Positions 17,876 to 33,578 of a stretch of 53,700 nucleotides of DNA are shown here, in pieces. A program made the position numbers and the translations under genes. Source of the DNA: a virus; IMG/VR virus record IMGVR_UViG_3300037504_000611, positions 1 to 53,700 of that record; one strand, given 5' to 3'. Positions within the stretch are counted from its first letter, which is position 1. Every line of letters starts with the position of its first letter. Under the pieces are notes generated by a model. That model worked only from the letters and a program-made list of their open reading frames with translations. It did not search any database and was not told the origin of the DNA.

Positions 17876-20800
17876 CCTGGCCAGATAGAGACACATACGT
17901 CTACAAGCTGCGCTGCTGGATAGGAGGCGTGCAGTACGCTCTCGCGTCGTTCCCGGCGCGGCGCATCCAGCTTGGGCAGCGGACTACCTGCAGTCTGGAA
18001 CTCACCTCCTCTGTTCCTGGCGCCAATACACCGCAGCCGGTGCGGGTTGATGTCGGGTTGCTGATTGGCGGGTCTGTCACCTGGTATCGATTCGTCACAG
18101 GCTATTTTGTTCATGATCAGACGCGGGGCGGCCCGCAGGCGTGGCGCGGGATTGTCATTGACTGTATGTGGAAACTTGAACAGGCATTGCAGTCAGATAT
18201 AACGTGGTCCAGCACACCCGTCGAAACCGCGCTGCTGGACCTGTTGCAGCGCGCTGGCCTGGACGATAGCGAGATCGGGTTTCTGTTCGCGCCGGGGTCC
18301 GTTTGGAACCTGGGCAATTTTGAGGACATTGTCATTGAGGCAGGCGAGCAGATACGCGGCATTTTTGATCGTGTGCTGGAGCACGCCGGATTGACGTTTT
18401 TCGTCAATGCGGGCGGCGCGGTCAATGTGGTACCGGATGTGTCCATTCCATCGCAGGACGGATCACCGGTTTTTGCCAGCGGCGTTGCGAATGGGTTTGA
18501 ACTCCCTGCTGACACAATAGGCTTTGCCGCGCCGGAACGGCTGTGGACTGATTGGCAGGCTGTCATTATCGAGTACACAGCCACCGGTCCATTGCGCAGC
18601 GACGGGTTTCAACCAAACGCCACGGTTGCCACGAGCATCCTGGACGACGGCGTCGCCGATGGTCGGCAATTTCCGTATTTCCAGACCACGGCGGTTTGCG
18701 AGGCCAGAGGCAGGCAGGTAATACGGCGCTCTGCTGCTCGCACTCGCTCGATCACATTCCAGACCAATTTGCAACCGCTCATCTATCCCTGGCAATCGTG
18801 CAAAATCATCTCGCCCGAGATAGACCTGGACACCGAAACAGGCATCGTTATTCGCAGCAGCGCCAATGACGGCGGGCTGACGACATTTATCGCCGCGTTG
18901 GGCCCGTCTCTTGTGGCAACTGATACCGATATACAGCCTGTGGAGGGAGAGGATGCAGGGGAGGGCGGCACCGGCGGGCTGGGGGACGGAGGGCTGGACC
19001 CGGTCACGGGAGAAATCGCCGGAGTTGAACCGATTGCCAGTATTACTACCACAATAGACGTGGAGCCGCTCTCGGGCAGCGGGAGTATCGCGTATGTGTT
19101 TGCAGATGGGTCGCAATCGCTCAGCAACAACGGCGGCACATTGACCTATTCCTGGACCGCTACTCCCGGCAGCGGGAGCGTCTCTCCCAGCACATCCACA
19201 GAGGTCAGTCCCCTGTTCAAATTCGACACCCTGACTGGCTCTACGCTGGCGCTGACTGTTGCTGAGAGCACAGACCCCACACTGACGAACACCCTGACCA
19301 TAGAACTGGACGGGCCGGATATAGAAGAGTTCACGCGAGTAGTGCAATACGCGCTCGCGGACGGTACCTGGGGCGTAGAGTACAGCACGCAGGCTGGACC
19401 AGCAGAATACACCTCAGACATCCCTGGCGCAACGTTTGATTGCGTTGGCGTGCCACGCTACAACGAGCAAGGGAAGCTGTGGGCGCTGTTTTCAAGCGGC
19501 CTCAACACAGCGCTCTATCGGCGCGAGCCGTCTGATTTTTCGCAGTTCCCTGAGTTTATAGACGCCACAAACTCAGGCGAACAGGGCACCACCTGGCTTG
19601 GAGTGCCGAGCGATATTTTTGTCGGCGAACCGTTTGTAAACGAGCAACTGCTGAACCTCGTACTGGTAGGACTGAGGCAGCCTGTCACTGGCGGGTTCGC
19701 CTATGTTGTCCTCTACAGCACCAATGCCACCGCAGACGTGCCCACATTCCAGCGGAGCGCAGCGTTGCCCACAATCACCGCAACGGCAAGCGTTAATTTT
19801 GGCGCCGTGTTCGTGAGCGCGTACGATAGCAACAGGTTCACAGTATGTGTGGGGCGGTATCTGTTCGAGTCCACCAACCGGGGAAACTCGTGGACTATCG
19901 GCATTACGAACCCTGACGCCAACGCGGTTGCTGAGGATCTGGCGATTGCGCCCTGGGGCACTGCGTGCGTGTTTTCCAATGTGGCCACCGATGCGAACCG
20001 GGTGCGGTTTACCGATGCGAGCCTGTCAGTTGACTGGTCGGGAGTTGTCACCACCGGCATGGAGATGCAAACCATCACGCCACTGCTCGCCAGGGAAGGC
20101 TACAAGGTCGGGAGCAACGACGGGAGTGTATTCCTGTTGCTTTTGTCGGGCTCTGTGTTCACCGCTACTGACATAGCACAAATCAGCAGCGGGAATATAT
20201 TCCGCGGCGTGCGAGATGGCGAGATACCTCTCGCGTTTTTCGCCTCAGACGGAGGCGTCTACAAACAGGCCAACGACGACTCCACACTGGAGAAAATAGT
20301 TAACGGAGACGCCGTGTCGGTGGGGTATGGGGGCATAGGACTGCCCCAACTCAAGCCTGGCATTGAGGTGGTGATAGGCGACAATGACGGCAATGTCTGG
20401 TATTACAATCAGACAGCAGGGTGGCAAAAACAGGTGGTCACGACATCGGGCGTACGCATACGCGAGGTTGTCGCAAACCCATTCAACCCCGATGAGTGGA
20501 TAGCCGTCGGACAGGACGGGGTCCATTACACCAACGACACCGGGAGCACATGGACACAACTGGTAACCGCTTCAGGTACAAGGGATTTCCTCTCGGCGTC
20601 GTTTCACGATTTCGTAGATGGCGCCTGGATGGCGTCAGGCCAGGACGGAAACATTAGAACTGGCACAAACAATGGGCCAGTAACCACCGTGAACAACACG
20701 CTCGGTTGGCAAAACTCGCGCACTATTTTTTGTGTGTCAGGCACAGGAACCGACTGGATACTGGCCGGAGTCCAATCGGGACTGGGCATCGAATTCGGAT

Positions 20801-21390
20801 TGAACACGCATACCGCTACTGGTGTGTCGCTCATTGTCAACAATAAACGCGATGGCGGGCTAGGGCGCGGCACCGCATTCATTGATCGTAGGCCAGGAGA
20901 CAGCCGCGTCATTATTGGTACGGCACGCGCAAGTGCTTCTATTGGGTATTATGTCGTCAAGGACTACAATGTTGACGATCTCATCCTCTACGATGATGAG
21001 TTGAGCACTGGCAATTATTGGAACACATTCGCCAAAGACGGGCTGTACAAATCGGGGGAAAACCTGGACCAGGTGCGGTTTTACTCCTCTCCCCTCACTG
21101 TGCCTCCTTCCTCTCCCCTCGTGCCTATTGATTACCCCGCGTTTACCCTGGTCACGCCAGAGATAAGCGGCACCGTGGGCGCGATACGTGCCGCGCGCCA
21201 GTCCAGAGAGACAATCAAAACACTCGCATGCCGTCGCATATCGGCAAACGAGGCGCTCAATCGCGATTGCCTGGTATTCACCGAGGATGTGGGAGCCTGG
21301 CAAATCCTGACGGGCCCGCAGGTGAGTGACGGACTAGCTAACGGGGGGGACCTGGAAAATAATATCGAGTGCATTCTGAGGCTGACATGA
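17872..21390 (+). CDS. Tail hub/tail-associated protein with PKD-like and beta-propeller domains
   Basis: I start it at ATG 17872 (GGAGGAGG at 17856-17863, ATGA overlap). The 1172-residue product has an N-terminal part (to about 360) resembling tail-hub (gp27-like) proteins, including AGEQIRGIFDRVLEHAGLTFFVNAGG. A Gly-rich linker (about 365-385) follows, then a PKD/Ig-like domain (about 400-480; LTYSWTATPGSGSVSPS). Next comes a propeller with Asp-box-like repeats such as FESTNRGNSWTIG and YTNDTGSTWTQLV (about 500-1040), and a short C-terminal domain. It probably forms the tip hub and contacts the host surface. The propeller resembles that of the tail-tube protein. Confidence 0.7.
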   Translation: MTWPDRDTYVYKLRCWIGGVQYALASFPARRIQLGQRTTCSLELTSSVPGANTPQPVRVDVGLLIGGSVTWYRFVTGYFVHDQTRGGPQAWRGIVIDCMWKLEQALQSDITWSSTPVETALLDLLQRAGLDDSEIGFLFAPGSVWNLGNFEDIVIEAGEQIRGIFDRVLEHAGLTFFVNAGGAVNVVPDVSIPSQDGSPVFASGVANGFELPADTIGFAAPERLWTDWQAVIIEYTATGPLRSDGFQPNATVATSILDDGVADGRQFPYFQTTAVCEARGRQVIRRSAARTRSITFQTNLQPLIYPWQSCKIISPEIDLDTETGIVIRSSANDGGLTTFIAALGPSLVATDTDIQPVEGEDAGEGGTGGLGDGGLDPVTGEIAGVEPIASITTTIDVEPLSGSGSIAYVFADGSQSLSNNGGTLTYSWTATPGSGSVSPSTSTEVSPLFKFDTLTGSTLALTVAESTDPTLTNTLTIELDGPDIEEFTRVVQYALADGTWGVEYSTQAGPAEYTSDIPGATFDCVGVPRYNEQGKLWALFSSGLNTALYRREPSDFSQFPEFIDATNSGEQGTTWLGVPSDIFVGEPFVNEQLLNLVLVGLRQPVTGGFAYVVLYSTNATADVPTFQRSAALPTITATASVNFGAVFVSAYDSNRFTVCVGRYLFESTNRGNSWTIGITNPDANAVAEDLAIAPWGTACVFSNVATDANRVRFTDASLSVDWSGVVTTGMEMQTITPLLAREGYKVGSNDGSVFLLLLSGSVFTATDIAQISSGNIFRGVRDGEIPLAFFASDGGVYKQANDDSTLEKIVNGDAVSVGYGGIGLPQLKPGIEVVIGDNDGNVWYYNQTAGWQKQVVTTSGVRIREVVANPFNPDEWIAVGQDGVHYTNDTGSTWTQLVTASGTRDFLSASFHDFVDGAWMASGQDGNIRTGTNNGPVTTVNNTLGWQNSRTIFCVSGTGTDWILAGVQSGLGIEFGLNTHTATGVSLIVNNKRDGGLGRGTAFIDRRPGDSRVIIGTARASASIGYYVVKDYNVDDLILYDDELSTGNYWNTFAKDGLYKSGENLDQVRFYSSPLTVPPSSPLVPIDYPAFTLVTPEISGTVGAIRAARQSRETIKTLACRRISANEALNRDCLVFTEDVGAWQILTGPQVSDGLANGGDLENNIECILRLT

Positions 21391-22742
21391 GCAACTCACG
21401 GTCCGATTATCTAATGGAGCGACTGCGGCAATTTACCACCGCGAACGATAATAACACACTCGTCCTGGCTGAGCAGCGCGCTGCAACCATTGCGAACACT
21501 ATCGGCATAAATTTAATAAACGAGGATAATATGGTCAATGGAGATGCGGCAGGGAGGCGGCAGGTCGTTGAACCAACAACGCTATACGATTTTCAGCATG
21601 AGTACGACCAGCAACCGGTCACTGAGGAAACACTGGCCACCGGATCGGGGAACACAGCAACGCACAACGCCAATGAGGCAGCGGTGGACATGACGACAGG
21701 GGGCACTGCTACAGGCCGCGTAGTCAGGCAATCCAGGCAATACATACGCTATCAGCCGGGCCGGGCACAACTCATTCTCTGCACCGGTGTGATGGGTGCG
21801 GCGACCGAAAATATCACCCAGCGCATTGGGTACTACGACGACAACAACGGGGTGTTTTTTGAGCAAACGGCAACCGATGTCGCAGTTGTCGTGCGCTCTA
21901 ATACATCTGGCAGCGTTGTGGACACGCGCGTTGCGCAGGCCAGTTGGAACCAGGATGTACTGGACGGCACCGGACCGTCTGGCGTAACACTAGACCTGAC
22001 GAAAAATCAGGTGTTCGTGATCGATTTTCTCTGGCTTGGCACCGCACAGGTACGCTATGGGTTCTACCTGGAGAGCAATACGGGCGATTTCGGCCTGAAA
22101 TGGGCGCACGAGGCGTATTATACCAATACGCAAACGGTGTCTTTTATGCGCACGGCAAATCTCCCCGTTCGTTACGAATTGGTGAATGACACAACGCCGG
22201 TGGCGTTCACGATGAAGGAAATTTGTTCGAGTGTTATCAGTTGGGGGGGCTTCGAGAGCGATCGTGCATTGCCGTTCGCTGCCAGCAATCAGGCGACGTC
22301 CGTTTCCTGCGGCACAGGCGCGCTTACTGGCACGCTGGCTATTCGAGCAGCGGACACGTTCAACAGTCTGGTTAATCGTGCCGGAATACGACCACGCGGC
22401 CTGAACCTGTTCACTGAATCGAGCGGCATCTACTGGCAATTGGTGTATAATCCCACAGTCACCGGAGGCGCATGGGTGAGCGCTGACGCAAACAGTGCTG
22501 TTGAGTACAATGCCACGCTCACCAGTTTTAGCGGCGGCATCGTTATCGAGATGGGGTATCTCCCGGTGGGGGGCGGTAACCAGGATATTGCACAGTTCGT
22601 CCAGGACATTGCAAGCCGCCTGCCCTACGGACTGGACGCGGCGGCAACAGCCGGGAGCGGTACAACGCTCCTCATTGCAGCGCAGGGATTGGGCGGCACG
22701 GCAGATGTGTATTCGGCCCTGATGTGGGACGAAATAAAATAG
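21387..22742 (+). CDS. Tail-tip structural protein (possible receptor-binding component)
   Basis: The start is ATG 21387, overlapping the hub stop as ATGA. The 451-residue product contains a beta-rich domain of a kind I recall from many environmental phages: QYIRYQPGRAQLILCTGVMG, ITQRIGYYDDNNGVFFE, VFVIDFLWLGTAQVRYGFYL and LPVRYELVND. It is the last long structural gene, after the hub, which fits a distal tip or receptor-binding role. That role is inference from position. Confidence 0.65.
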   Translation: MSNSRSDYLMERLRQFTTANDNNTLVLAEQRAATIANTIGINLINEDNMVNGDAAGRRQVVEPTTLYDFQHEYDQQPVTEETLATGSGNTATHNANEAAVDMTTGGTATGRVVRQSRQYIRYQPGRAQLILCTGVMGAATENITQRIGYYDDNNGVFFEQTATDVAVVVRSNTSGSVVDTRVAQASWNQDVLDGTGPSGVTLDLTKNQVFVIDFLWLGTAQVRYGFYLESNTGDFGLKWAHEAYYTNTQTVSFMRTANLPVRYELVNDTTPVAFTMKEICSSVISWGGFESDRALPFAASNQATSVSCGTGALTGTLAIRAADTFNSLVNRAGIRPRGLNLFTESSGIYWQLVYNPTVTGGAWVSADANSAVEYNATLTSFSGGIVIEMGYLPVGGGNQDIAQFVQDIASRLPYGLDAAATAGSGTTLLIAAQGLGGTADVYSALMWDEIK

Positions 22743-22755
22743 CGGGGGCGCATAG

Positions 22756-22944
22756 ATGCATATTCAGGACATTCGCGACCAGTTACCGCTCAATCACCGA
22801 TGGCACGGCGCAACCATCGGCACACGAGGTCAAACGTGGTTCATCACGCTGCACTACAACGGCCCGGAGGTTCCCGCAGCACGCCAGAGCAGAAGCCGGG
22901 TCAGGATTGTCATCGCTCGGCCCGGCTCATCAGCGCGGCTCTGA
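22756..22944 (+). CDS. Small protein, possibly a truncated amidase-type endolysin
   Basis: The 62-residue product has a segment WFITLHYNGPEVPAA that loosely recalls the first strand of amidase/peptidoglycan-recognition domains (hydrophobics, then H-Y-N/D), but the rest of an enzyme domain is absent and no other frame continues it. It ends 5 bases before a converging minus-strand gene. It may be the remnant of an endolysin or an unrelated small protein. Confidence 0.35.
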   Translation: MHIQDIRDQLPLNHRWHGATIGTRGQTWFITLHYNGPEVPAARQSRSRVRIVIARPGSSARL

Positions 22945-22949
22945 AAGAT

Positions 22950-23306
22950 TTATGTCCTGCCTCCACACACTGCCATCGTGTCATGTGTGTCGATATCTAT
23001 AACAACACGTTCGTCAACGGTGATAGAACAGGTGACCTCATCGGCAGTCTCACTCAGTGCTACCAGAGTTATTTCCGCACCTTCTACAACGTTGTCTAAT
23101 GTGATTGCCCACGGCAACCGAACAAGCCTGCCGTCCTCCATAAAATCTCTGCCCGGTATCTGGTATCCCACCACGGCGGTACCCTCCCCGCTAACGCGGT
23201 ACACAACTCGGTGAGCGGGCACCACCGTTCGTTTTGAAGTTTGGAGATACAATACCCCGCCGAGCAGAACGATAACCAAAATCAATCCATAGATAAGCTT
23301 TCGCAT
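22950..23306 (-). CDS. MmpS-like secreted/membrane-anchored protein
   Basis: The 118-residue product starts with MRKLIYGLILVIVLLGGVLYL, a signal anchor, followed by a beta-sandwich-like part: VVYRVSGEGTAVVGYQIPG, VRLPWAITLDNV, DEVTCSITVDERVVI. This resembles the extracytoplasmic domain of MmpS-type proteins (Actinobacteria and others). It has an AAGGAT ribosome site. It is the last gene of a short minus-strand unit and converges with the tail module. A role in surface interaction or superinfection exclusion is possible but not shown. Confidence 0.6.
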   Translation of the reverse strand: MRKLIYGLILVIVLLGGVLYLQTSKRTVVPAHRVVYRVSGEGTAVVGYQIPGRDFMEDGRLVRLPWAITLDNVVEGAEITLVALSETADEVTCSITVDERVVIDIDTHDTMAVCGGRT

Positions 23307-23318
23307 GTTTTATCCTTG

Positions 23319-23528
23319 CTACGCTTCCACTTCCTGTACTTGCTGCTCCAGAGTCGCCAGCACCAGCCGCCGCACGCACGCGGCGCGGCTCTCTCCAGGC
23401 TGGCGTTCGGCTTCGATGCGTTCAATCTCCTGTGCTGAAAATTTACTGCTCACCGTTCTCAGCCAGGGCTTACCTTTAGGCTTGGGGCCGCTCCCTGGAC
23501 GGCGGCCCCCGCGGGTGTGTCTGGTCAT
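23319..23528 (-). CDS. Small basic DNA-binding-like protein (ribbon-helix-helix type)
   Basis: The N-terminus GGRRPGSGPKPKGKPW is a Gly/Pro/basic arm typical of short DNA-binding proteins. It is followed by TVSSKFSAQEIERIEA, which could form a ribbon-helix-helix, and a second helix (RAACVRRLVLATLEQQ). I use ATG 23528; a TTG lies two codons upstream. It may regulate the adjacent partition or lysogeny genes. Confidence 0.6.
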   Translation of the reverse strand: MTRHTRGGRRPGSGPKPKGKPWLRTVSSKFSAQEIERIEAERQPGESRAACVRRLVLATLEQQVQEVEA

Positions 23529-23537
23529 TTGCAATCG

Positions 23538-23744
23538 TCAATCCACCTGGTCATCGAAGCCGGGTTCTCCGCATTCCCATCCAAACACCAGGTTGTCCTC
23601 GTTGTCACTGTACAGTCCGCCGCTCTGGTCATACCACTGTACCAATTCCAGGTTGTTCTCAACCGCTACGTCGTGTGCTGTTTTGCCATCCGTCATCTGC
23701 GCGTTCAGTGCATCAATTCGTTTCTGCGTCATTACGTTTGCCAT
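23538..23744 (-). CDS. Small acidic protein of unknown function (68 aa)
   Basis: I choose ATG 23744 (MANVMTQ), which has AAAGGA upstream; the frame reaches further upstream but into the promoter at 23787-23815. The product is acidic with a C-terminal NLVFGWECGEPGFDDQVD. No family recognised. It is the first gene after that promoter. Confidence 0.55.
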   Translation of the reverse strand: MANVMTQKRIDALNAQMTDGKTAHDVAVENNLELVQWYDQSGGLYSDNEDNLVFGWECGEPGFDDQVD

Positions 23745-23786
23745 TGTGTGTGTCCTTTCAGTAATGTGTATCCTTAACATGAATAC

Positions 23787-23815
23787 AGTATACACTATTC
23801 AACGCTGTTTGTCAA
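23787..23815 (-). promoter_or_regulatory. Sigma70 promoter, minus strand
   Basis: Read on the minus strand: TTGACA (23815-23810), a 17-bp spacer and TATACT (23792-23787). It lies upstream of the three small genes 23744-22950 and downstream of the FtsK operon. Confidence 0.8.
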
Positions 23816-23847
23816 GGCTTCAGAAAGCCAAATAGGAAGAGTTTTGT

Positions 23848-24000
23848 TCAATCCAGCGTCTTTGCTCGGACGAACCCGCTAATCCGCGCCGCTGCCTCCT
23901 CGGTTCCGGCCCGGTGGCCGTGGCCGTAGCCGAGTCGATACGCGGCGACCAGGAGTGCGAGAAGCACCACCAGCGCTACAATGCCCAGACACTCAATCAT
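23848..24000 (-). CDS. Small membrane protein (50 aa) at the end of the partition operon
   Basis: I choose ATG 24000 (MIECLGIVALVVLL), which overlaps the FtsK-like stop by 8 bases; the frame is open upstream but inside that gene. One membrane helix (about residues 4-21) is followed by a Gly/His-rich turn and a basic tail. It may partner with the membrane-bound translocase encoded before it. Confidence 0.5.
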   Translation of the reverse strand: MIECLGIVALVVLLALLVAAYRLGYGHGHRAGTEEAAARISGFVRAKTLD

Positions 24001-25462
24001 TGCGCACCGCCTCCCGAATGACGGCCTGTGCCTGCTGGCTGGCTTCGGTGTAGCGCCTGCCGTTCCTTGCGCCGCTGATCTCCCTGGCAATCTCTGCAAT
24101 ACTGGCCCCTCCAGCGAACATGTCAAGAACACGGCGCTCTGCTGCGGTATGCGCTTTTACCGAAGTGTTGCCAGCGTCTTGCCGTGGCATCGCTATGTCA
24201 ATGGTTTCCGCCTGCTGGTGCAGGTCGTCCGGCAACAGTCTGGCAATGCCTTCATTGCTGGCGAGTGGCACCCGTGCTAGTGTTGCGCGGGGCGTCGCTG
24301 CGCTGCGCAACAGCACCACGCCCTGGCCGAGTTGCTCTTCATAGGTAAACACGTCACGCTTGGGCATATCCAGCAATCGTACCACGCTATCCGCAGCGCC
24401 GCCGGAATAGTAGCACGAGCGCAGGTTATCCCGCACCTCGCCGGGTGTCTTGAGCACATCCGTGAGCAGGGATTGCGAACTGGTGACAACATACAAAAAG
24501 ACCTTCCGCCCCTCCTGTAGGAGCTTTGCCAGCGTGGCCATCGCCCCTGGCACATTGGCAATAATGGCGGGCAATTCGTCAACGTAGCACACCAGCGGAG
24601 CGCCCCATTTCTCGCCCGCTTCACGCAGGTCATAGCGTCGCCGCATCTCGCTATCCAGCCAGACAAACAGGTCTTGTATGTCGCCTGCCTTACGCGCTGG
24701 GGCCAGCTTCAACCGCCGCGCGATAGGTCGCCAGTCCTCACCCGACTCGGCGTCGAGTTCGGCGAAGTGCGGGTCGGCCAGCACGCACGGCACCTTGCAC
24801 GCTAACAGTTGGGCCAGCAGCAGCCTGCCCGTGTTGCTCTTGCCTCCGCCCGTGTTGCCGACGATGCCCGTGTGCATCAGTGCTGCTGCTGGCACCGTGA
24901 GCGGTTTCCCGTCCTCGCCCAGCCCCAACAGCAGCCGCCTGGGCGACGGCACAAAGTCCAGGTCGGCCAGGTCAATCAATCCAGGCAAACCGGACGCAGG
25001 CTGCTCATCTGGCACGCTCGCGGTATCGCCAGGTATGGCTTTGCTGCTGGTGTGCGGCGCATAGGCAATGTGCGGGGCGTAATGGTGCGCTGGCAAGGCG
25101 TGCTGATACTGGGCTTGTGCAATTAGTACACGCTCTTTGCTGGCAAGCTCCCGCATCGCATAGCGTCGCTCGAAGTTCAGCCCCCGTGCCCAGTTCCACC
25201 CGGCCAACGAGACGAACCCGAACACCGCCAGACTGAAGCCGACCAGGCCAATCACGGCCACCGAAGCCGCGCTTACGAGCACAGCGTCAAACACCGGCTG
25301 CTGGTGCTCCTGCCAGCGCCGCTCCTGCTGGCGTTCCAGCGCCAACATTGCGCGTGCGTGGCTGTTCTCTATCTGGCGGCGCTCTGCTGCCTCAGGGTCC
25401 AGTGTGACTGCCAGGAGCCACACCGCAACGAAGACAACAGACAACGGTATCAGTTTTTCCAT
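23993..25462 (-). CDS. FtsK/HerA-like DNA translocase
   Basis: The 489-residue product (ATG 25462 with an AAGGG site) has two N-terminal hydrophobic segments (about 5-20 and 60-88) and a linker. Its RecA-like motor domain has Walker A GNTGGGKS at 202-209 and Walker B VCYVDE at 291-296. It ends with a Gln-rich, winged-helix-like region (from about 440; SIAEIAREIS) comparable to FtsK gamma. FtsK-type motors move double-stranded DNA across or along the membrane during segregation or conjugation. It lies directly downstream of ParM- and ParR-like genes in one transcription unit, which suggests a role in segregating or transferring the phage replicon. Confidence 0.8.
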   Translation of the reverse strand: MEKLIPLSVVFVAVWLLAVTLDPEAAERRQIENSHARAMLALERQQERRWQEHQQPVFDAVLVSAASVAVIGLVGFSLAVFGFVSLAGWNWARGLNFERRYAMRELASKERVLIAQAQYQHALPAHHYAPHIAYAPHTSSKAIPGDTASVPDEQPASGLPGLIDLADLDFVPSPRRLLLGLGEDGKPLTVPAAALMHTGIVGNTGGGKSNTGRLLLAQLLACKVPCVLADPHFAELDAESGEDWRPIARRLKLAPARKAGDIQDLFVWLDSEMRRRYDLREAGEKWGAPLVCYVDELPAIIANVPGAMATLAKLLQEGRKVFLYVVTSSQSLLTDVLKTPGEVRDNLRSCYYSGGAADSVVRLLDMPKRDVFTYEEQLGQGVVLLRSAATPRATLARVPLASNEGIARLLPDDLHQQAETIDIAMPRQDAGNTSVKAHTAAERRVLDMFAGGASIAEIAREISGARNGRRYTEASQQAQAVIREAVRND

Positions 25463-25494
25463 AGTGTGACCCTTCCAATTGGATAACACGCGTT

Positions 25495-25791
25495 TTATAC
25501 GCTAATCCCCACGTCCCAAAAATCGTCACCGTCGTCGCTCACTGGCGCTGCTGGTGGTGCCTGCTGCCGGGGTTGCGCCAGTGCCGCCAATTCGCGGCGC
25601 AATGCGTCGGAGATCGTATCGCTCTCCAGAACCTTGTGTACTTCTCCGCGATGCTGCTGCACGTCACACCCCAGGCGATACAGCCCCAGGATGATGACCC
25701 CGCGCACGGCAAACGACGGATCGCCATGCGCCAGGATATCCTCACGCAGCGCTTCGGTTACACGAGCGAACAGCATGCCCCGTCGTGTCAT
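25495..25791 (-). CDS. ParR-like adaptor (98 aa) next to the actin gene
   Basis: The ATG overlaps the actin stop (ATGA). The N-terminal half is basic and helical (FARVTEALREDILAHG, VRGVIILGLYRLG), compatible with a ribbon-helix-helix DNA-binding fold. The C-terminus is acidic and ends DDGDDFWDVGISV, like the acidic tail by which ParR proteins contact ParM filaments. I assign it mainly from genetic position, size and this layout; sequence similarity is not evident by eye. Confidence 0.55.
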   Translation of the reverse strand: MTRRGMLFARVTEALREDILAHGDPSFAVRGVIILGLYRLGCDVQQHRGEVHKVLESDTISDALRRELAALAQPRQQAPPAAPVSDDGDDFWDVGISV

Positions 25792-26762
25792 TTGCCCGCC
25801 TTTGCTATGCGCTGCGCCAGATACGCATAGCCGCGAGCGACGGCCATTTGTGGCTCTGCTACCACATGCGCGTGCGGGAACTTGCGTTGTATCGCATCAG
25901 TCAATTGCGGCAATTCAGCCCCACCGCCGCCGATCAGGATGGTATCCAGGTGTGCCCCATTTTTCCAGCGTTCAACCAGACGGGAGGCAACGGTTTCGCC
26001 GTGCTGCGACAGAGGCGTGTCCCATCCATCCGGCAACGCCACCCGTTTCCCGCGTATCTTGAGGCATTTATTACGAATAACCTCATCGGTTTCCTGGAGC
26101 GTCAGGTTGCGCCCTGAGAAGTTGCTCAAACGGCTTCGCACCGCGCCCAACGGCTCTGACGTGCCGATGTCCCAGGTGTCCAGGCTGCCCGACACCGGAC
26201 GCTTACCCTTGACCTCACTCACGTCTATGGTGAGGTGCCCCATATCCACAACGCCCACGCGCCCGGACGCCAGCGCCTCATCACCTACCACTGCCCCCGT
26301 GCTATCGAGCAACGCAGAATAAAGGAGGCCAAGCGGCTCGGCAATCACCCGTATCTCTGTGAACGTGTCCGATCCTTCACGCAGGCGGGCACCGAGTGCC
26401 TGGGCCTTGCTCATATCCTCGGCCTGGTTCGCGGGTAGTCCGGTCACGCACACGCCCGGGTCAGCACCGTTCAAACTGGCGCGTTGCAATGCGCTGCGCA
26501 CCAGCACCGGAATAAACCGACCGTCATTGAGCCGCCCGACGGACAGGTCGGTCAGTGGGCTGCCTATCTCCACATCCTCGCCCGTCCAGAACTGTTGACC
26601 GCCGTGTTCCGTGACCACCGCGTTGTCGATTGCCCCTGCCAGTTCAGGCGCAGCAAAAGCAATCACCGATGGGAACACCAGCGAACACTGTTCCGAACCG
26701 TCCTCGTTGAGTACCACGTACTTAGTAAAGCCGTGCCCAACATTCAAGCCGTGTACCAACAT
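25788..26762 (-). CDS. ParM/StbA-family actin-like ATPase
   Basis: The 324-residue product (ATG 26762 behind AAAGGAG) carries actin-fold signatures: phosphate-1-like NVGHGFTK at 7-14, phosphate-2 VVDMGHLTID at 171-180, and adenosine motif LIGGGGAEL at 276-284. Plasmid ParM proteins polymerise into filaments that push sister replicons apart, bound through ParR at parC. Residue 7 is Asn where most family members have Asp, a variation worth noting. It is the first gene behind the promoter at 26800-26828 and is followed by the ParR-like and FtsK-like genes. Confidence 0.85.
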   Translation of the reverse strand: MLVHGLNVGHGFTKYVVLNEDGSEQCSLVFPSVIAFAAPELAGAIDNAVVTEHGGQQFWTGEDVEIGSPLTDLSVGRLNDGRFIPVLVRSALQRASLNGADPGVCVTGLPANQAEDMSKAQALGARLREGSDTFTEIRVIAEPLGLLYSALLDSTGAVVGDEALASGRVGVVDMGHLTIDVSEVKGKRPVSGSLDTWDIGTSEPLGAVRSRLSNFSGRNLTLQETDEVIRNKCLKIRGKRVALPDGWDTPLSQHGETVASRLVERWKNGAHLDTILIGGGGAELPQLTDAIQRKFPHAHVVAEPQMAVARGYAYLAQRIAKAGK

Positions 26763-26799
26763 ACCCCCCCCACTCCTTTCTCGATAGAACGCTGCTCGT

Positions 26800-26828
26800 A
26801 TCATACCTGCTTGTCTATCAGTTGTCAA
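26800..26828 (-). promoter_or_regulatory. Sigma70 promoter of the partition operon
   Basis: On the minus strand: TTGACA (26828-26823), a 17-bp spacer, TATGAT (26805-26800). The first gene starts at 26762. An inverted pair of GATAGACAA elements (26811-26819 and 26835-26843) brackets the -35 box, so a protein bound there would control the operon. Confidence 0.8.
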
Positions 26829-26843
26829 TCAATCGATAGACAA
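26811..26843. repeat. Inverted repeat of GATAGACAA, candidate centromere/operator
   Basis: TTGTCTATC at 26811-26819 and its inverse complement GATAGACAA at 26835-26843 flank the -35 box of the partition promoter. A third copy lies at 26979-26987. In plasmid ParMR systems, ParR binds repeats around the parM promoter, which serve as both operator and centromere. Confidence 0.6.
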
Positions 26844-26854
26844 TTCCTTCAAAA

Positions 26855-26983
26855 TTGCCCCGAAAACCCCTTGACAACCCTGCCCGGCGCGGCACCCCAA
26901 AAGCCGCGCGCTTTGACCCGGTGCCGTCAGGATTGACGGTCGAAGCCGTTGCCCGCGCCATTGATGCGGCATGGGAGCGATAG
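26855..26983 (+). CDS. Possible small basic protein (42 aa), TTG start, or remnant
   Basis: A GC-rich open stretch encodes MPRKPLDNPARRGTPKAARF and continues to a helical end (LTVEAVARAIDAAWER). It lacks an ATG and a clear ribosome site and its stop overlaps the third GATAGACAA copy. It could be a remnant of a small DNA-binding gene. Apart from this, 26829-27003 holds only the repeats and promoter elements. Confidence 0.25.
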   Translation: MPRKPLDNPARRGTPKAARFDPVPSGLTVEAVARAIDAAWER

Positions 26984-26987
26984 ACAA
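26979..26987 (+). repeat. Third copy of the GATAGACAA element
   Basis: An exact 9-base copy of the element that forms the inverted repeat at the partition promoter, about 140 bases away. It may be a second binding cluster of a centromere. Confidence 0.45.
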
Positions 26988-27003
26988 CTCCAAGCGATAA
27001 CGA

Positions 27004-27030
27004 AAGCCCCTGGCGTCGTGCCAGGGGCTT
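27004..27030 (-). terminator. Hairpin terminator-like element after the minus-strand operon ending at 27075
   Basis: A perfect 11-bp stem (AAGCCCCTGGC paired with GCCAGGGGCTT) with a 5-nt loop. On the minus strand it is followed by a modest T-rich stretch (TTTCGTTAT). It lies between the operon 34117-27075 and the partition region, so it probably ends that transcript. Confidence 0.6.
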
Positions 27031-27074
27031 CATGTTGCCTGACAGTGGGTATATCACGCTGCCTGACAATCTGT

Positions 27075-27482
27075 TTACAACAAATGGCGAAAACTGCGCC
27101 CGTGGACAATATCGCCCATCGTCACTTTGCCCACTGCATATTCCCGCGCCATCTGCGCTTGCAAGCCGTGCCGTCCGCCTTCTGCTGCCCAGCGTTGACG
27201 TATTTCAAGCACCTGTTCATCGGTCAGCTTGCGCGGGGAACGCTTGCGCGGCGCGCCTGCGTCAAGCTCCTTTCTGCGTTGTCTCCAGTGCTGTTTCGGC
27301 GGCGCAGCCTGCCCTCCCGGCGGCGCAGCACGCTTTTCCAGCGGTGCAACGTCAGCACGCTCGGCGCGATAGCGTTCATAGAGGTGGTGGATTTCATCCT
27401 GGACACTCTGGAGATGCACGCCGCTCGCGTGGCCCTGTTGTAGCTCGCGGGTTTTCATTTTGATTTGCTCAAGTGTGGTCAT
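27075..27482 (-). CDS. Protein with a C-terminal helix-turn-helix (135 aa)
   Basis: I choose ATG 27482. The first half is helical and polar and the middle is Pro/Lys/Arg-rich. The end (KLTDEQVLEIRQRWAAEG, MAREYAVGKVTMGDIVHGR) matches the helix-turn-helix found at the end of many phage HNH-type and resolvase-like proteins. No HNH motif is visible, so it may be a DNA-binding protein that lost, or never had, a nuclease domain. Confidence 0.55.
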   Translation of the reverse strand: MTTLEQIKMKTRELQQGHASGVHLQSVQDEIHHLYERYRAERADVAPLEKRAAPPGGQAAPPKQHWRQRRKELDAGAPRKRSPRKLTDEQVLEIRQRWAAEGGRHGLQAQMAREYAVGKVTMGDIVHGRSFRHLL

Positions 27483-27484
27483 TA

Positions 27485-28051
27485 TTATCGATGCTCCATC
27501 ATATTCCCCTGGCGGGGCAACATCGCCTGCGGTGTCCACTCTGTCTCTGGCGTGTTGTAGCGACCCGTGTAGAGGGATGTGTTGTCTTCAACACGATGAA
27601 ACTTGACAATGCCCACGCGCATGCCAGGATACAGCAAGACGGCATCGGGACCATAGTTGAACAATTCCAGCGTCCATCGGGAGCAATACCCGGCATCACC
27701 TATGCCAGCCGAGACGTGCGCCGTCAGGCTCCATCGGGCGGCAGTGCTACGGGTCTCAAGGGCCGGTTCGATATCTGGCACGGTGGTGCCAACGTACTCA
27801 TCGGTGTGCCCCAGCGCGAACGACAGCGACGGCAGTCGGAACGGTTGCCCTGCCGACACGTCGTCAACGAGCATAAATCGCTCCTCGGGTGCCTGGGTGG
27901 CAATATCCACATTGCGCCCCATCGGGCGCGGCAGCCAGAAATTATCTCCCAAGTGGACGTCGAGGTGTGTTTCAATCTTCTCTGGCTCTGGCGTGCAGAC
28001 GATGCTGCCATCGGCCAGCGCCGCACGAATAGCGTCATTCCCCAGTATCAT
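27485..28051 (-). CDS. dCTP deaminase-like / dUTPase-superfamily protein
   Basis: The 188-residue product (ATG 28051 behind GGAGGGG) shows the family's order of motifs: ETHLDVHLGD (27-36), LSFALGHTDEYV (76-87), RSTAAR (101-106) and SAGIGDAGYCSRWTLEL (114-130). In Dcd the Glu of the LEL motif is catalytic and the RSS/R motif binds the triphosphate. The enzyme would turn dCTP into dUTP, supplying thymidylate for phage DNA. Some relatives lack activity and instead regulate, so catalysis is likely but not certain. Confidence 0.75.
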   Translation of the reverse strand: MILGNDAIRAALADGSIVCTPEPEKIETHLDVHLGDNFWLPRPMGRNVDIATQAPEERFMLVDDVSAGQPFRLPSLSFALGHTDEYVGTTVPDIEPALETRSTAARWSLTAHVSAGIGDAGYCSRWTLELFNYGPDAVLLYPGMRVGIVKFHRVEDNTSLYTGRYNTPETEWTPQAMLPRQGNMMEHR

Positions 28052-28250
28052 GCTTCCCCTCCTTCAGATAATCTGTTTCACTTTCTCCGTGGCGTTGACA
28101 CAGCGTCGCGACAATGCTGCGTAGCCGTTCAAGCTCCTGCTGCAACTCGCAGATATGCGCTATCAGCCCCTCGAGTGACTCGTCGCCTTCCGGTTGCACC
28201 AGCATATCAAGCAGGTTGTATGCCCGTGCCAGTTCTTCATTATTCAACAT
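28035..28250 (-). CDS. Small acidic helical protein (71 aa)
   Basis: I choose ATG 28250 behind GAGGAG. The product is helical with a Leu-rich heptad pattern (GLIAHICELQQELERLRSIVATL), suggesting a short coiled coil and dimer. It overlaps the dCTP deaminase start and the preceding gene. No family recognised. Confidence 0.5.
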   Translation of the reverse strand: MLNNEELARAYNLLDMLVQPEGDESLEGLIAHICELQQELERLRSIVATLCQRHGESETDYLKEGKHDTGE

Positions 28251-28644
28251 CTCGACACTCCTCTTCAATCCAGTCCAGAGCGACTAAACAGATAGCGTGT
28301 GGGGCTGTTTTGCCTTCGGCGGCGTGTATCTGCGCATAGTTCGGCCAGTGTTCGTTTTGATACTGCATGATGCGGGCGACAGCACGAGCACCATAGTGCT
28401 CGGTAAAAACTGCCAGCATTGCTATATTGATGCGGTAGATGACAAGCTCAGCGTCTTTCGGGAGGGCGCTATAGTACGGCACCCACATACCCAGATCGTC
28501 CCCCTGGTTGTTCAGGAGATAGTAGTCTCCTGCTATATCGTCAAACATGGTCCGATAACCCATGACGCGCTCGGCAATAAGCACATCGAGTTCGCGCTCT
28601 GCGGGGTAGCGGGTTGCAATCGGTACGTCGTTTTGTGTGCTCAC
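28240..28644 (-). CDS. Phage ABA-sandwich-domain-like protein
   Basis: I choose GTG 28644, overlapping the upstream stop as GTGA, with GGAG 8 bases upstream. The 134-residue product has the start ERELDVLIAERVMGY, a later WVPYYS and a C-terminal PHAICLVALDWI. I recall this arrangement from the phage ABA-sandwich family, which is common in early regions of tailed phages and of unknown function. Confidence 0.6.
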   Translation of the reverse strand: MSTQNDVPIATRYPAERELDVLIAERVMGYRTMFDDIAGDYYLLNNQGDDLGMWVPYYSALPKDAELVIYRINIAMLAVFTEHYGARAVARIMQYQNEHWPNYAQIHAAEGKTAPHAICLVALDWIEEECRDVE

Positions 28645-29267
28645 TCCTGTTTCTCCAGTACATCCACCACGAGGCGCGCCACCATCGCAGCGATTTGCAC
28701 CGCTTCTTTTCGCATTGCTGCGTGGTCGCGGTGCGCCTGCTTGACCTTTACCTCTTGCCACAGCTCCTCCACTTCTTCCAGGATGACCGCATAGGCTTCA
28801 TGTGCGCTATTCAGGCGTGGATAGCACTCCATTGCCCTGGTGAGTTCCTGGTCAACGTCTCGGTAAAACCGCCGCAGGTTCTCTGGCAGCACGCCCTGAT
28901 AGACGTGGCGCTGGCACATATTGGATTTCCGGTATACCTGTGTTTGCTCCTCGTATGCCTGTATTAGCTCCTGGCGCACCTGTCTTAGCTCATGATAAAA
29001 CGTGCGAACATGGGCCAGCAACACGGGTACATCCTGACGAGCGTGTGCGATGAATGCGGCGTTGTTTATTGCATTCGGGAAAAACTCGTCTATTGTTCCG
29101 TCGCCAAATGCACTATAGAGCAATGCTATATCCTCCTTGCCTGCATTAACATATGCCGTAGCGTACGACCACGGCCCTGGCGTTGCCGCGTTCGCTCGTG
29201 CCTCAATCGCGTTTAGATCTTTCTCAGACGTCCTCTTGATAATCGCGTTTAGTTCTTTCTCAGTCAT
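28641..29267 (-). CDS. Ead/Ea22-like protein with a MazG-like C-terminal part
   Basis: The 208-residue product has the Ea22-type segment ATPGPWSYATAYV, then NAAFIAHARQDVPVLLAHV. It ends with a helical stretch HEAYAVILEEVEELWQEVK and EAVQIAAMVARLVVDV, resembling the metal-binding helices of MazG-type nucleotide pyrophosphohydrolases (ExxE spaced from a later E). It may act on nucleotides alongside the dCTP deaminase. Start ATG 29267 with GGAG upstream. Confidence 0.6.
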   Translation of the reverse strand: MTEKELNAIIKRTSEKDLNAIEARANAATPGPWSYATAYVNAGKEDIALLYSAFGDGTIDEFFPNAINNAAFIAHARQDVPVLLAHVRTFYHELRQVRQELIQAYEEQTQVYRKSNMCQRHVYQGVLPENLRRFYRDVDQELTRAMECYPRLNSAHEAYAVILEEVEELWQEVKVKQAHRDHAAMRKEAVQIAAMVARLVVDVLEKQE

Positions 29268-29269
29268 CC

Positions 29270-29641
29270 TTACATCTCCACATTCTTCAAAAATGCCCGT
29301 ATATCCGCCAGTGTGTCCATATCCAGACTGAATCCACCCTCCCAGCCAGTGACTACGCGCTGCAACAGGTCCAGCGCATAATTCAGGTTGTCGTTGCTGC
29401 TGTAATGGCCCTCCAGTGCCTTTTGCACATCCCCGCGCAGGTGCGGGTGGGCAGCGTCCCAGCCGGATATGTCCTGCACGCTGGCAAGCTCCGCCAGCAG
29501 GTCACGCAGCGCGGCCCGCTCCGCACGGGCCTTGTGCAGCGCATCGGTGAGCACTGCCATCGTGGCACGTTCTCGTTGTTCGATGGCTGTGTTGTATTCT
29601 CGCACAATCTGCTCTGACCGTTTGTCTATGTGTGGTTGCAT
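29270..29641 (-). CDS. Helical phage protein of unknown function (123 aa)
   Basis: It starts at ATG 29641 behind AAGGAGGAAAC and overlaps the end of the C5-methylase gene by 16 bases. The N-terminal half is a long charged helix rich in Glu, Arg and Ala, probably a coiled coil. No known domain. Confidence 0.55.
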   Translation of the reverse strand: MQPHIDKRSEQIVREYNTAIEQRERATMAVLTDALHKARAERAALRDLLAELASVQDISGWDAAHPHLRGDVQKALEGHYSSNDNLNYALDLLQRVVTGWEGGFSLDMDTLADIRAFLKNVEM

Positions 29642-30414
29642 GTTTCCTCCTTATGTCTCTCTAATGCTGTCCTGACCGCTCCTGCTATTGCCTTGCCCAT
29701 CGGCAGCGGAACCCCGTTCCCGATGGCCTTGAGCTTGCCCGCCACGGTGAACGGGGCACCGTCTAAGAAATCCCCCGGCAAGCCTTGCAAGCGGCAATTC
29801 TCTTGCAGAGTTCTGCCATTGCGTGCGTTCGGAGGCAACTCCGAACGCACCTTGTCTTTGACAACCTTCTTGGGTTTCCCGTTGCCATTCAGGCGAATGG
29901 GCGTGCCGTTCCAGTTGCCGCCGCCAGATGCCACAACCGCATAGGCCCACTCGCCAGGCACCGCGCCCCACAGGTCGAGATGGGGGAGCAGGCTTATGGC
30001 CTTTTCGCCGCGCACGCCAAATACGAAACGGCGCTCGCGGTTTTGTTCACCGCCGCACTGGCGATTGTTGATGACCACAACCGACTGTGCATAGCCCGGT
30101 GTGACTGGACATGGCGCAGCGGGCACATTCTCCATCAAAAACGCACGCGGTTGCGCTTCGAGGACAACCCGCGCAAACTCCGGTATCAGATCGGGCGCAA
30201 GTTCATAGCCGTTGTGGCGCACCATATGCGCCAATCGGCTAAAACGCTGGCACGGTGGCCCGCCGATAACCAGGTCAAACTTGCCTGCTGGCGGGCGGAA
30301 CGTGTGAATGTCACCGCCCCACAGGCTGTCCGGCCCGCGCACGACACAAAAGCCGTGCGCTTCAAAGGCCATATCAATCAAACCAATGCCAGGAAACAAC
30401 GACAATACCAGCAT
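29626..30414 (-). CDS. DNA (cytosine-5) methyltransferase
   Basis: The 262-residue product has motif I LSLFPGIGLIDMAFE (4-18), motif IV GGPPCQRFS (51-59, catalytic Cys about 55), motif VI MENVP, motif VIII-like RERRFVFG and motif X IGNGVPLPMG. It is short for the family, with a small target-recognition region. It would methylate C5 of cytosine in phage DNA; no matching endonuclease lies beside it, so it is a solitary modification enzyme, usually anti-restriction. Start ATG 30414 overlaps the Dam stop (TGATG). Confidence 0.85.
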   Translation of the reverse strand: MLVLSLFPGIGLIDMAFEAHGFCVVRGPDSLWGGDIHTFRPPAGKFDLVIGGPPCQRFSRLAHMVRHNGYELAPDLIPEFARVVLEAQPRAFLMENVPAAPCPVTPGYAQSVVVINNRQCGGEQNRERRFVFGVRGEKAISLLPHLDLWGAVPGEWAYAVVASGGGNWNGTPIRLNGNGKPKKVVKDKVRSELPPNARNGRTLQENCRLQGLPGDFLDGAPFTVAGKLKAIGNGVPLPMGKAIAGAVRTALERHKEETCNHT

Positions 30415-31265
30415 CACGCCACCCCCTCTCGTTCTAGCAGATCAAACAGCGTGCGCTCCTGCTGCGTGCTCCGATTGCACACCCATACCACCTCCACGCG
30501 TTGGTTTGCGGTGCGTGTTTTACTGTTCTCCGCGCTCATCACGGCCTGTATTTCTATCCGTCGTTGTGCCGACGCTGGTTCTGTCGTCTGCGGGTAGTTG
30601 TTCAGGATGTAGCTCCCCTGGCACGTATCCAGCGCGCTACACAGCGCGTGCCAGTCTTCCAGTGTATAGCCACTGTAATGGCCCTGGTTTGCGCCAGGGT
30701 AGGGCGGGTCGCAGTAGAACAGCGTGTCTGGACTATCCCAACGCTGGATACACCTGATGGCATCCTCGCACGACACATAGACACCGCTGAAACGCTCCAG
30801 GATGGTGGGAAGCCATTGCAGATACGTTGCCCATGCCTGTGCGCTGTTCCGTGTCTTTACGTTTGTTCCCCACCCCTTCCCTATGCCGTTTGCAAACGAC
30901 TGGCGGGTTTGCACGACCACCGCCCAGGCGACGCGCAACGGCGTGTAGTCGTGCGGCGCTTGCAAGACGGCGTACGCCTTGCGATACTCCGACTGACTGT
31001 ATGGCGTGTATTGCAGCAGGTGTAGCAGGTCGTCCTTCTGCTCCTGGCACACGCGATAGAGCGTCACAATGCGCTCGTCCCTATCGTTGACGCATTCCCG
31101 ATAATCATCACGATTATCGGGGCGAGGCTTGCCCTTGGCGAACAGCACCGCCGCGTCGCCTGCGAACGGCTCTACATAGACAGTGTGCGGAATGGTACGG
31201 ATAATGTCCACAATGCGCGATGCAATGCGCTGCTTGCCGCCGTAGTAGCTGATGATTGGTTTCAC
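30414..31265 (-). CDS. Dam-type (D12 class) DNA adenine-N6 methyltransferase
   Basis: The 283-residue product has YYGGK (7-11), VEPFAGDAAV (31-40, SAM-binding motif I) and FYCDPPYPG (183-191, catalytic DPPY), in the alpha-class order of Dam enzymes. It would methylate adenine in a short target such as GATC; the target cannot be read from sequence. The start is GTG 31265, overlapping the stop of the small upstream gene as GTGA. With the C5 methylase and the ParB-methylase it makes three DNA methylases. Confidence 0.85.
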   Translation of the reverse strand: MKPIISYYGGKQRIASRIVDIIRTIPHTVYVEPFAGDAAVLFAKGKPRPDNRDDYRECVNDRDERIVTLYRVCQEQKDDLLHLLQYTPYSQSEYRKAYAVLQAPHDYTPLRVAWAVVVQTRQSFANGIGKGWGTNVKTRNSAQAWATYLQWLPTILERFSGVYVSCEDAIRCIQRWDSPDTLFYCDPPYPGANQGHYSGYTLEDWHALCSALDTCQGSYILNNYPQTTEPASAQRRIEIQAVMSAENSKTRTANQRVEVVWVCNRSTQQERTLFDLLEREGVA

Positions 31266-31354
31266 GCCTCCTTCTCTCCGAACATCGCGTCAACGGTAAA
31301 GCCGGACGGCGTGTGTATGGCGCGTTTGGCGGCAAGAAAATCGGTGTAGTTCAT
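31262..31354 (-). CDS. 30-residue peptide between the DndC-like and Dam genes
   Basis: ATG 31354 sits in an ATGA overlap with the DndC-like stop and the gene ends in a GTGA overlap with the Dam start, with AGAGGA upstream. Both couplings suggest it is really translated. The peptide (DFLAAKRAIHTPSGFTVD) resembles the N-terminal element seen on some phage helicases and methylases, so it may be a remnant of a longer protein. Confidence 0.45.
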   Translation of the reverse strand: MNYTDFLAAKRAIHTPSGFTVDAMFGEKEA

Positions 31355-32631
31355 CGTGTATCCTCTAGTGAGAGCAGGAGCGGCTGCTCGATGCCCTCGG
31401 CCAATATCTGGGGCAGCAACTCGGCCCCGTTCGGCTCGGTGCCGTCCCATTTGCCAGGCCAGGTATTGAGGGCGTGCAGTTGCACAATGCGCCCATACTC
31501 GCGCCCGTTGATAAGCTCCATTGCTGGCATATTGTTCTGGTGTGCCCCCTGAAAGACCTCGCGCTGAATTTGCAAAATCTCGGCCAGTCCCCACTGCCGG
31601 GCCTCCATCGTGAGCGGCCCTTTGCGCCCCGGGTTTTTAGAGAGCGTGCCGTCCTTCTTGCGCTCGGTGCCGTCTTTTTGCAGCCGGTTGCCGTGCTTGC
31701 GCAGTTCGAGGCTGATCGGGCGCAGGCGTTTCAGGGGAGCCAGGTGCCCCCAGCGCTCCGGGTATTCGCTCAATAGGTGGTCAAGGGCTACGTCTGTCGT
31801 CGCTAGTTCGCAGCCCGTGCAGCCGGTGCGGGCGTTGAGTTCTTTCTGGTCTCCCTCTTCACTCACGCCGTATACATCTGCAATCATCTGCGTATCGAAG
31901 CCGTGTGACGGCGCAAAGAACATCAGCCAGTCCCAGACGTGGCACAGCCGCCAGTGCAGCAACGGAGCCAGGGTGTCAGCCAGGGCTGTAGGCGTAGTCT
32001 CCTGATACCATCCCTGCCCACATTCGCCACCGTCTTTGCCGCAGGCCAGGGCAATGCGCTGGTCACGCGCTGCACTTTCGCCCATCCGCAACCCGGTCAG
32101 CATCAGGATTTTCTCATTGCCATACCCCTGGTAACGCCAGCGTTTGTGGCGCTTATCCCAAACCATCTGCCCCAGGCCCAGCACGGCACCGTGCTGGGCA
32201 AGTGCGTTATTCATTGGTTCGATTTTGATTTGCCGAGTACACCAGCGGAAGGTCATATTGTTGGGCGGTGGCACGCCTCGGCCTAACATATAGACATAGA
32301 AACGCTCATCAAGCGGCGGCAATACCACCTGTGCGTTGACCTCGCGCTGCCTCATCGTGCGCAGCAGGTGCAAGGCACTGGCTTGCAGCGGCGGCAACTC
32401 GCGCCGGGTATCGGCATAGAGCACAGTCAGTGTCTCAGGACGCGGCACCTGCCCTGACTCAATGAGCCAGAGCACCAACGTTGTTGTGGCGGTGCTGTCC
32501 TTGCCCCCACTGAACGCTATGGCCCAATGTCGATAGTTTGCAGCATAGGCGTACAGGCTATCAATGGTCATCTGGATGGCATCGTTCATCGTCATGCGTT
32601 GCTCTTCCCAGAGCGAAAGTTGTCGTTTCAT
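31351..32631 (-). CDS. DndC/PAPS-reductase-like ATP pyrophosphatase
   Basis: The 426-residue product has the PP-loop SGGKDST (41-47) of adenylating sulfurtransferases. It also has Cys residues at RWCTRQIK and TGCTGCELATTD, which resemble the iron-sulfur ligands of DndC (RWCTxxLK and GCxxC). DndC works with DndA, D and E to put sulfur into the DNA backbone, but no such partners are in this genome. It may use host partners, reduce sulfate, or act alone in another modification. It starts at ATG 32631 behind GGAGGAGAG and lies between the other DNA-modification genes. Confidence 0.75.
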   Translation of the reverse strand: MKRQLSLWEEQRMTMNDAIQMTIDSLYAYAANYRHWAIAFSGGKDSTATTTLVLWLIESGQVPRPETLTVLYADTRRELPPLQASALHLLRTMRQREVNAQVVLPPLDERFYVYMLGRGVPPPNNMTFRWCTRQIKIEPMNNALAQHGAVLGLGQMVWDKRHKRWRYQGYGNEKILMLTGLRMGESAARDQRIALACGKDGGECGQGWYQETTPTALADTLAPLLHWRLCHVWDWLMFFAPSHGFDTQMIADVYGVSEEGDQKELNARTGCTGCELATTDVALDHLLSEYPERWGHLAPLKRLRPISLELRKHGNRLQKDGTERKKDGTLSKNPGRKGPLTMEARQWGLAEILQIQREVFQGAHQNNMPAMELINGREYGRIVQLHALNTWPGKWDGTEPNGAELLPQILAEGIEQPLLLSLEDTR

Positions 32632-33349: not shown

Positions 33350-33351
33350 TC

Positions 33352-33573: not shown

Positions 33574-33578
33574 CTCCC

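Follow-up and report, generated by a model that had tools for sequence, protein, structure and literature searches.

The stretch of DNA considered here, referred to as the window, is the whole IMG/VR virus record IMGVR_UViG_3300037504_000611 (G000; 53,700 bases), and the locus of interest is a run of four minus-strand genes, which opens with a ParM-like actin and a ParR-like adaptor and continues with a membrane-anchored motor and a small membrane protein. The parM-like gene (25788..26762, 324 amino acids, aa) begins with an ATG at 26762, the mechanical open reading frame (ORF) starting from a TTG at 26828. It overlaps by 4 base pairs (bp) the gene of the 98-aa adaptor (25495..25791), which is followed by the gene of a 489-aa ATPase of the FtsK/HerA superfamily (23993..25462) and, with an overlap of 8 bp, by that of a 50-aa membrane protein (23848..24000). 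A sigma70-type promoter, TTGACA-17-TATGAT (26800..26828, minus strand), lies ahead of the run, and a second promoter-like site, TTGACA-17-TATACT (23787..23815, minus strand), stands just past the 50-aa gene, where it is likely to open the following transcription unit and so to mark the border of the operon. Since one promoter-like site precedes the four genes and a second lies directly behind them, they plausibly form one transcription unit; promoter-like sites are weak evidence on their own, three having been found in the region against 1.7 expected by chance. An earlier note, made from the sequence alone, had read these parts as the partition locus of a phage-plasmid, and all of them were located where it had placed them.

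The first gene product is a ParM-type actin, an identity that is secure at the level of sequence. It matches the 'partition protein' family PHROG 691 (E=1e-31, residues 3-321) and, above the cut-off, Pfam MreB-like_C (2.1e-10), and the ParM-like actin of the earlier note was in this way borne out by profile searches. The cut-offs of the curated ParM equivalogs were missed (NF010498, 50.7 bits vs. 417; PRTRC_D, 48.4 vs. 214.8), so that the protein is not of that ParM type. The phosphate-2 motif D173-x-G-x-x-T-x-D and the adenosine motif GG279-280 are invariant in all eight aligned ParM proteins (G000, a second phage G001 described below and six others), the fixed residues being D173, G175, T178, D180, G279, and G280. 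Relatives were found in 146 plasmid records, the best among the matches listed (28% identity) being that of Aromatoleum aromaticum EbN1, where the neighboring gene is annotated ParR, and in 24 records of a named phage collection, at 21-27% identity among the matches listed. At eight other ParM loci, a gene of 74-141 aa lies directly downstream in six, a 67-aa gene directly upstream in one, and neither in the remaining one. The AlpA-AlpC order is seen in Clostridioides phage pCD5401_3 (L042:5776-5979), with an acidic-ended 67-aa gene directly upstream of the ParM-like gene.

When 2.9 million viral contigs were scanned with ParM, a ParM profile and a ParR profile, the sole relative found was IMGVR_UViG_3300037317_000025 (G001; 75,346 bases). 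It is a different phage: with 76 G000 proteins as tblastn queries, some of them ORFs that are probably no genes, 14 gave any match, several in overlapping frames and many at 23-45% identity. The two ParM proteins are 89% identical (dS 0.78, dN/dS 0.115), which points to purifying selection on ParM. In both phages, a small gene stands directly downstream of parM, the position of a parR, and the two adaptors (98 aa in G000 and 101 aa in G001) are 59% identical overall. Identity is 47% over residues 1-50 and 94% (16/17) over residues 82-98, with synonymous changes in this acidic tail, which in G000 ends in SDDGDDFWDVGISV. Such a pattern would be expected of an adaptor that turns its tail to a conserved actin and its front to a diverging DNA site.

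Upstream of parM, the two phages can be aligned without gaps over TTGTC-N12-GACAA-N6-GACAA-N5-TATGATACGA-N-CAGCGTTCTATC, the intervening letters being different. The operator- or centromere-like core TTGTC-N12-GACAA-N6-GACAA (26811..26843, minus strand in G000) has the same spacing and orientation in both, and the G001 promoter has the same hexamers and spacing. One of the three operator half-sites overlaps the -35 hexamer, and therefore part of the operator agreement is not independent of the promoter. The earlier note had described a promoter inside repeats, and this held: TTGACA-17-TATGAT lies within a GACAA/TTGTC cluster that exceeds chance, with seven sites in the 300-bp stretch from 26811 (the window maximum) against a window average of 0.70. 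An 11-bp tandem of only about two copies was detected by Tandem Repeats Finder at 26811-26831, and outlying TTGTC sites at 26873, 26983, 27065, and 27105 (within 26844..27109), the last of them inside the end of the next upstream gene, may extend the repeat region. Direct repeats with a spacing kept in G001 are thus found upstream of parM, where a parC would be sought. With its tail conserved, its front diverged and the operator spacing kept, the 98-aa protein appears to behave like a ParR, and the ParR-like partner of the earlier note is supported by the synteny of parMR in G001 and the near-identical tail. The core also occurs with TAAAGT in many other viral contigs (L013-L038), in most cases some 75 or 140 bases upstream of a conserved ORF for a 51-aa membrane protein.

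The third gene encodes a protein that exceeds the Pfam cut-offs for DUF87 (1.7e-7, 32.0 vs. 23.2 bits) and FtsK_SpoIIIE (5.8e-6, 26.3 vs. 24 bits). It has a Walker A motif (GNTGGGKS), hydrophobic segments at residues 4-22 and 68-86 by hydropathy, and a C-terminal helix-turn-helix-like region, in agreement with the membrane-anchored RecA-type motor that had been described from the letters. A profile of six motor relatives found EccC/FtsK structures best (3e-10 to 2e-6) and then, lower, TrwB, TcpA and HerA; for the subfamily no NCBIfam cut-off was reached, and a structure model (predicted local distance difference test, pLDDT, 45) was too poor for use. The 50-aa product has one hydrophobic segment by hydropathy, which agrees with the small membrane protein of the earlier note. 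The two proteins are probably a membrane translocase unit of the phage for double-stranded DNA (dsDNA), which would then be the substrate of the motor. A role as packaging ATPase was rejected, a separate terminase large subunit being encoded at 51931-53265, and so was a defense HerA, since the PADLOC matches are weak and cover the ATPase core only (best model mad8 in 6/6 motors).

The motor was followed through seven records (G000-G006, of which G005 and G006 are near-identical). Scanning the viral contigs with the G000 motor alone returned none, and with the G001 motor only itself; an alignment of the two motors returned five more records and did not return G001. Because of this miss, the relationship between the motors of the two ParM phages, which are only 21-28% identical, rests on one BLASTP comparison (3e-4), an hhalign value of 60% and the shared mad8. 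G001 has four genes between parMR and the motor, namely one for 206 aa, one for a membrane-anchored M23 peptidase and two for multi-spanning proteins. In both ParM phages, the single FtsK_SpoIIIE match of the genome lies in the gene run downstream of parMR, and a long tail gene is convergent on this run. With a ParM of 89% identity in front of motors so little alike, the arrangement may reflect a swap site or a pairing favored by selection.

The decisive record for the motor is G002 (IMGVR_UViG_3300037848_000009; 60,396 bases, of which 60,000 were compared), a sister phage in which 34 of the 76 query proteins match and most head and tail genes are collinear, at about 38-86% identity. Its motor is 57% identical to that of G000; next come a gene for a small membrane protein (54 aa, 40% identity to the 50-aa product) and convergent tail genes. 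No ParM was found in G002; in the place of parMR stand genes for Csf1 (4.5e-16), Csf2 (7.2e-81), a CysH/PAPS-reductase-like protein, a Cas6-like protein and Csf3 (1.9e-46), a type IV Cas set (L044:1866-5851). Direct repeats of at least 22 bases within 200 bases were not found in G002 20001-40000. In G005 and G006, the motor comes after a ParB-like gene and one for a DUF2637 membrane protein and ahead of a serine recombinase gene, and in G003 and G004 a membrane-type gene of 170-177 aa lies before it. At L048:2662-8759 and in L047, genes for a ParB-like protein of 672 aa, a DUF2637 protein, the motor and a serine recombinase are consecutive, with convergent tail-type genes beside them.

In all, ParM is present in 2/7 motor-bearing records. 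The motor and its small partner are constant and the partition cassette is exchangeable, and the sister phage shows the motor to be independent of parMR. The idea that the locus, by virtue of its motor, is one machine was therefore rejected, and the distal half of the operon reads as an older, separate and more widely conserved phage unit that shares the transcript. The motor as a part of the segregation module, as the earlier note had it, is not supported in that form, given G002 and the five of seven records without ParM, but a coupling keeps a small probability, since in both ParM records parMR lies upstream of the motor in one run of genes. Of the four-gene unit whose conservation the note proposed to check, the parMR pair is syntenic in G001, where four genes intervene before the motor, and G002 has the motor and the small membrane gene only.

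As to lifestyle, G000 carries a tailed-phage gene set (terminase large and small subunits, helicase-primase, DNA helicase, RecT-like annealing protein and RuvC-like resolvase), and an exact direct repeat of 127 bases at its two ends gives a circular map; by its length, this repeat looks like an assembler overlap. Matches to Phage_integrase or Resolvase, which stand for tyrosine and serine recombinases, were not found in the window, the controls having matched 14/14 and 10/14 genomes, and the absence of an integrase asserted by the earlier note was in this respect confirmed by profile search. No tyrosine or serine recombinase was found in G001 or G002 either. One or the other is present in G003, G004, G005, and G006, that is, in four of the five ParM-less motor records, the last two being near-identical. 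G000 hence joins the presence of partition genes to an integrase not found, the combination by which a phage-plasmid is recognized, and the two ParM phages are consistent with partition as a substitute for integration, the numbers being small. When 84,980 species genomes of bacteria and archaea were scanned with ParM and the ParM profile, which reach close relatives only, 15 and 74 stretches matched by pattern, none of which encodes a relative; therefore neither a host nor an integrated copy was found within this reach.

We propose, with a probability of roughly 0.55, that a partition cassette of type II (ParMRC-like) is carried here by a tailed phage that has no integrase. The ParMRC-type cassette is, as far as its sequence tells, probably functional, and the phage is most likely kept as an episome. 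The 98-aa ParR would bind the GACAA/TTGTC repeats over the parM promoter through its N-terminal half, and this binding would both repress the operon and mark the phage DNA. The conserved acidic tail of ParR would hold the end of a ParM filament, whose growth would move or separate circular phage genomes and so lead to persistence as an episome; DNA binding, the contact of ParM with ParR and repression are steps that we infer. For the motor, we prefer the reading as an older neighbor to that as a component of the segregation machinery.

Several observations weigh against this proposal. The 98-aa protein has no match in Pfam, PHROG, NCBIfam or PDB families, and the comparison with ParR families by profile, which the earlier note had proposed as a check, gave none. 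A search of it with RHH_1 returned nothing; a model from two sequences is all helical (pLDDT 76), and fold searches with it match nothing; a profile built from six other adaptors leaves it outside the best 15 of 1468 ORFs. To the eye, the beginning of the protein resembles a ribbon-helix-helix (RHH), that of the G001 copy (VYVRMTEAMRADLEKHGQLSDVVRGVLLLGL) even more, and several other ParM-adjacent proteins have an acid-rich, hydrophobic-tipped tail; a statistical attempt on these likenesses was negative. The repeat cluster is short beside known parC sites. The core operator with a loose -10 was matched in 26 viral stretches, 25 of which have no ParM (the other is G001), and therefore the pattern itself is not specific and becomes suggestive only when its position is considered as well. 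The phosphate-1 Asp helps to hold the metal ion of the nucleotide; it is replaced by Asn7 in G000 and G001, the other six ParM proteins having Asp (5/6) or Glu (1/6), and Asn7 could weaken the use of ATP by ParM. A circular map is equally expected from headful packaging of a circularly permuted genome, a plasmid-type replication initiator was not identified, and G002 has neither ParMR nor recombinases.

Known partition systems offer both likenesses and differences. The ParR protein binds direct repeats upstream of parM, which are 10-20 bp in several plasmids and 11 bp in R1 (PMC9426499). The ParMRC plasmids R1, pSK41, and pCW3 resemble the locus in the order of actin and small adaptor, in direct repeats upstream of parM and, for R1, in the 11-bp spacing, whereas here the adaptor is unrecognizable by sequence, the repeats are few, the phosphate-1 residue is Asn and there is a link to a membrane motor. 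The Bacillus plasmid prophages IEBH and vB_BtS_B83 are, by their description, tailed phages of similar size with a ParM and an adjacent small protein (PMC8026635). IEBH is a 53-kb phage placed among circular plasmid prophages, with a ParM and an RHH protein; it shares with G000 the lack of a recombinase, as described there (PMC8026635). Among the matches listed from the phage collection, which does not include IEBH and vB_BtS_B83, the best ParM proteins are only 21-27% identical to that of G000.

An alternative that seems possible, if on the unlikely side, is that the phage actin serves after the manner of AlpC and AlpA of prophage CGP3, which bring the circular DNA of the phage to the membrane and increase the number of phage copies, and for which the authors argue against segregation (PMC4446434). 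The AlpAC system is alike in its phage actin, its co-transcribed adaptor and its promoter-region repeats (PMC4446434). A ParM-like gene with an adjacent small gene also occurs in SPO1-group phages, and a site at the membrane would go well with a membrane motor encoded in the same operon. However, the order here is actin and then adaptor, as in plasmid ParMR, whereas the alpAC order is adaptor and then actin; CGP3 integrates (PMC4446434), and without a recombinase the present phage has no recognizable route to chromosomal residence of that type.

It is less probable that the region upstream of the motor is no more than a modular hotspot, a swap site in which parMR is one of several unrelated passengers, possibly altered in activity by Asn7 and serving, for example, in the incompatibility or exclusion of related phages. 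The type IV Cas genes of G002, the ParB-like genes of G005/G006 and the parMR of G000/G001 all stand before a motor of the same superfamily, and both ParM proteins have Asn7, as such a view would have it. Purifying selection on both ParM and the tail of ParR, together with the kept operator spacing, speaks instead for parMR as a working unit that has a DNA site of its own, and partition-type genes make up two of the three passenger types.

Quite improbable is a coupled machine, in which ParMR would deliver DNA to the membrane motor and dsDNA would be pumped across the septum or into a neighboring cell, in the manner of TraB and Spd of Streptomyces, for although both ParM records carry the cassette upstream of a membrane motor of one superfamily, G002 has the motor and small membrane gene without ParMR and five of the seven motor records lack ParM. 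The contrast between the ParM and motor identities means that the association either outlasted motor divergence or arose twice, and the single FtsK_SpoIIIE match of each ParM genome downstream of parMR, like the G006 motor that comes after a ParB-like gene and a DUF2637 membrane protein, would suit a coupling. TraB combines a membrane anchor with a C-terminal DNA-binding region. The likeness to TraB/Spd, an FtsK-type motor beside small proteins, does not come from direct sequence comparison, and no transfer repeats were found in G000. In Streptomyces conjugation, one FtsK homologue recognizing 8-bp repeats is needed and diverse Spd proteins take part in plasmid spread (PMC4170104); here, no clearly over-represented 8-mer was found, no Replic_Relax relaxase matched in G000, the control being likewise silent, and FtsK_SpoIIIE exceeded the cut-off in 0/7 other ParM carriers (the EbN1 plasmid being left out of this search), BboS-125 having a weak match about 18 kb away. 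We likewise hold it very doubtful that this phage group persists extrachromosomally around the translocase and its small partner, plugging in ParMR, ParB-like or type IV Cas genes, with ParMR delivering the genome for pumping across the septum or into a neighbor.

For the partition cassette with an older neighboring translocase, which we prefer, there are precedents on both sides: ParMR is known from phages, and FtsK proteins from the vicinity of partition genes. The FtsK/SpoIIIE proteins are often encoded beside phage segregation systems (PMC9658697), and in the phages Novomoskovsk and Bolokhovo the FtsK/SpoIIIE, Replic_Relax and RHH genes stand together, which is alike in joining an FtsK-type protein to a segregation gene (PMC9658697). 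These two phages lack the actin motor gene, and G000 differs by its silence for Replic_Relax noted above. An operon of ParMR plus motor as such was not found in the open-access literature searched, the placing of FtsK beside segregation genes being already in PMC9658697.

The locus offers a concrete case of an uncultivated phage lineage that seemingly uses actin-based partition instead of integration, and with the matched pair of ParM phages the part of the adaptor that faces the actin can be told from the part that faces the DNA. It further brings to light a conserved membrane translocase of phages, whose upstream neighbor is swapped among plasmid-type systems, and knowing the cargo of this translocase would help to explain why phages carry FtsK-like proteins.

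Several other features of the window may be recorded. No tRNA genes were found, no endolysin was recognized among the scanned G000 proteins, and no M23 peptidase was found in any frame of the window. Within the structural module (7623-10926), there are glycosyltransferase genes, of which 8275-10926 (883 aa) contains several domains of this type and 7623-8273 appears by eye to be another. A PAPS-reductase-like gene lies at 31351-32631 (PHROG 12882, 4.7e-143; DndC-like, 1.7e-33) and could have a DNA modification role. The 3' end of the helicase-primase gene contains an array of AGAGTGAC-type repeats (34450-34622), possible iterons, with an 18-bp unit in 2.8 perfect copies at 34570-34619 preceded by degenerate ones. 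Two paralogous phage regulators (PHROG 129; 39404-40048 and 42174-42860) have a common opening and an additional C-terminal helix-turn-helix-like part, and the gene at 50244-51467 encodes a ParB-like N-terminal domain fused to a DNA methyltransferase (PHROG 620 and 498).

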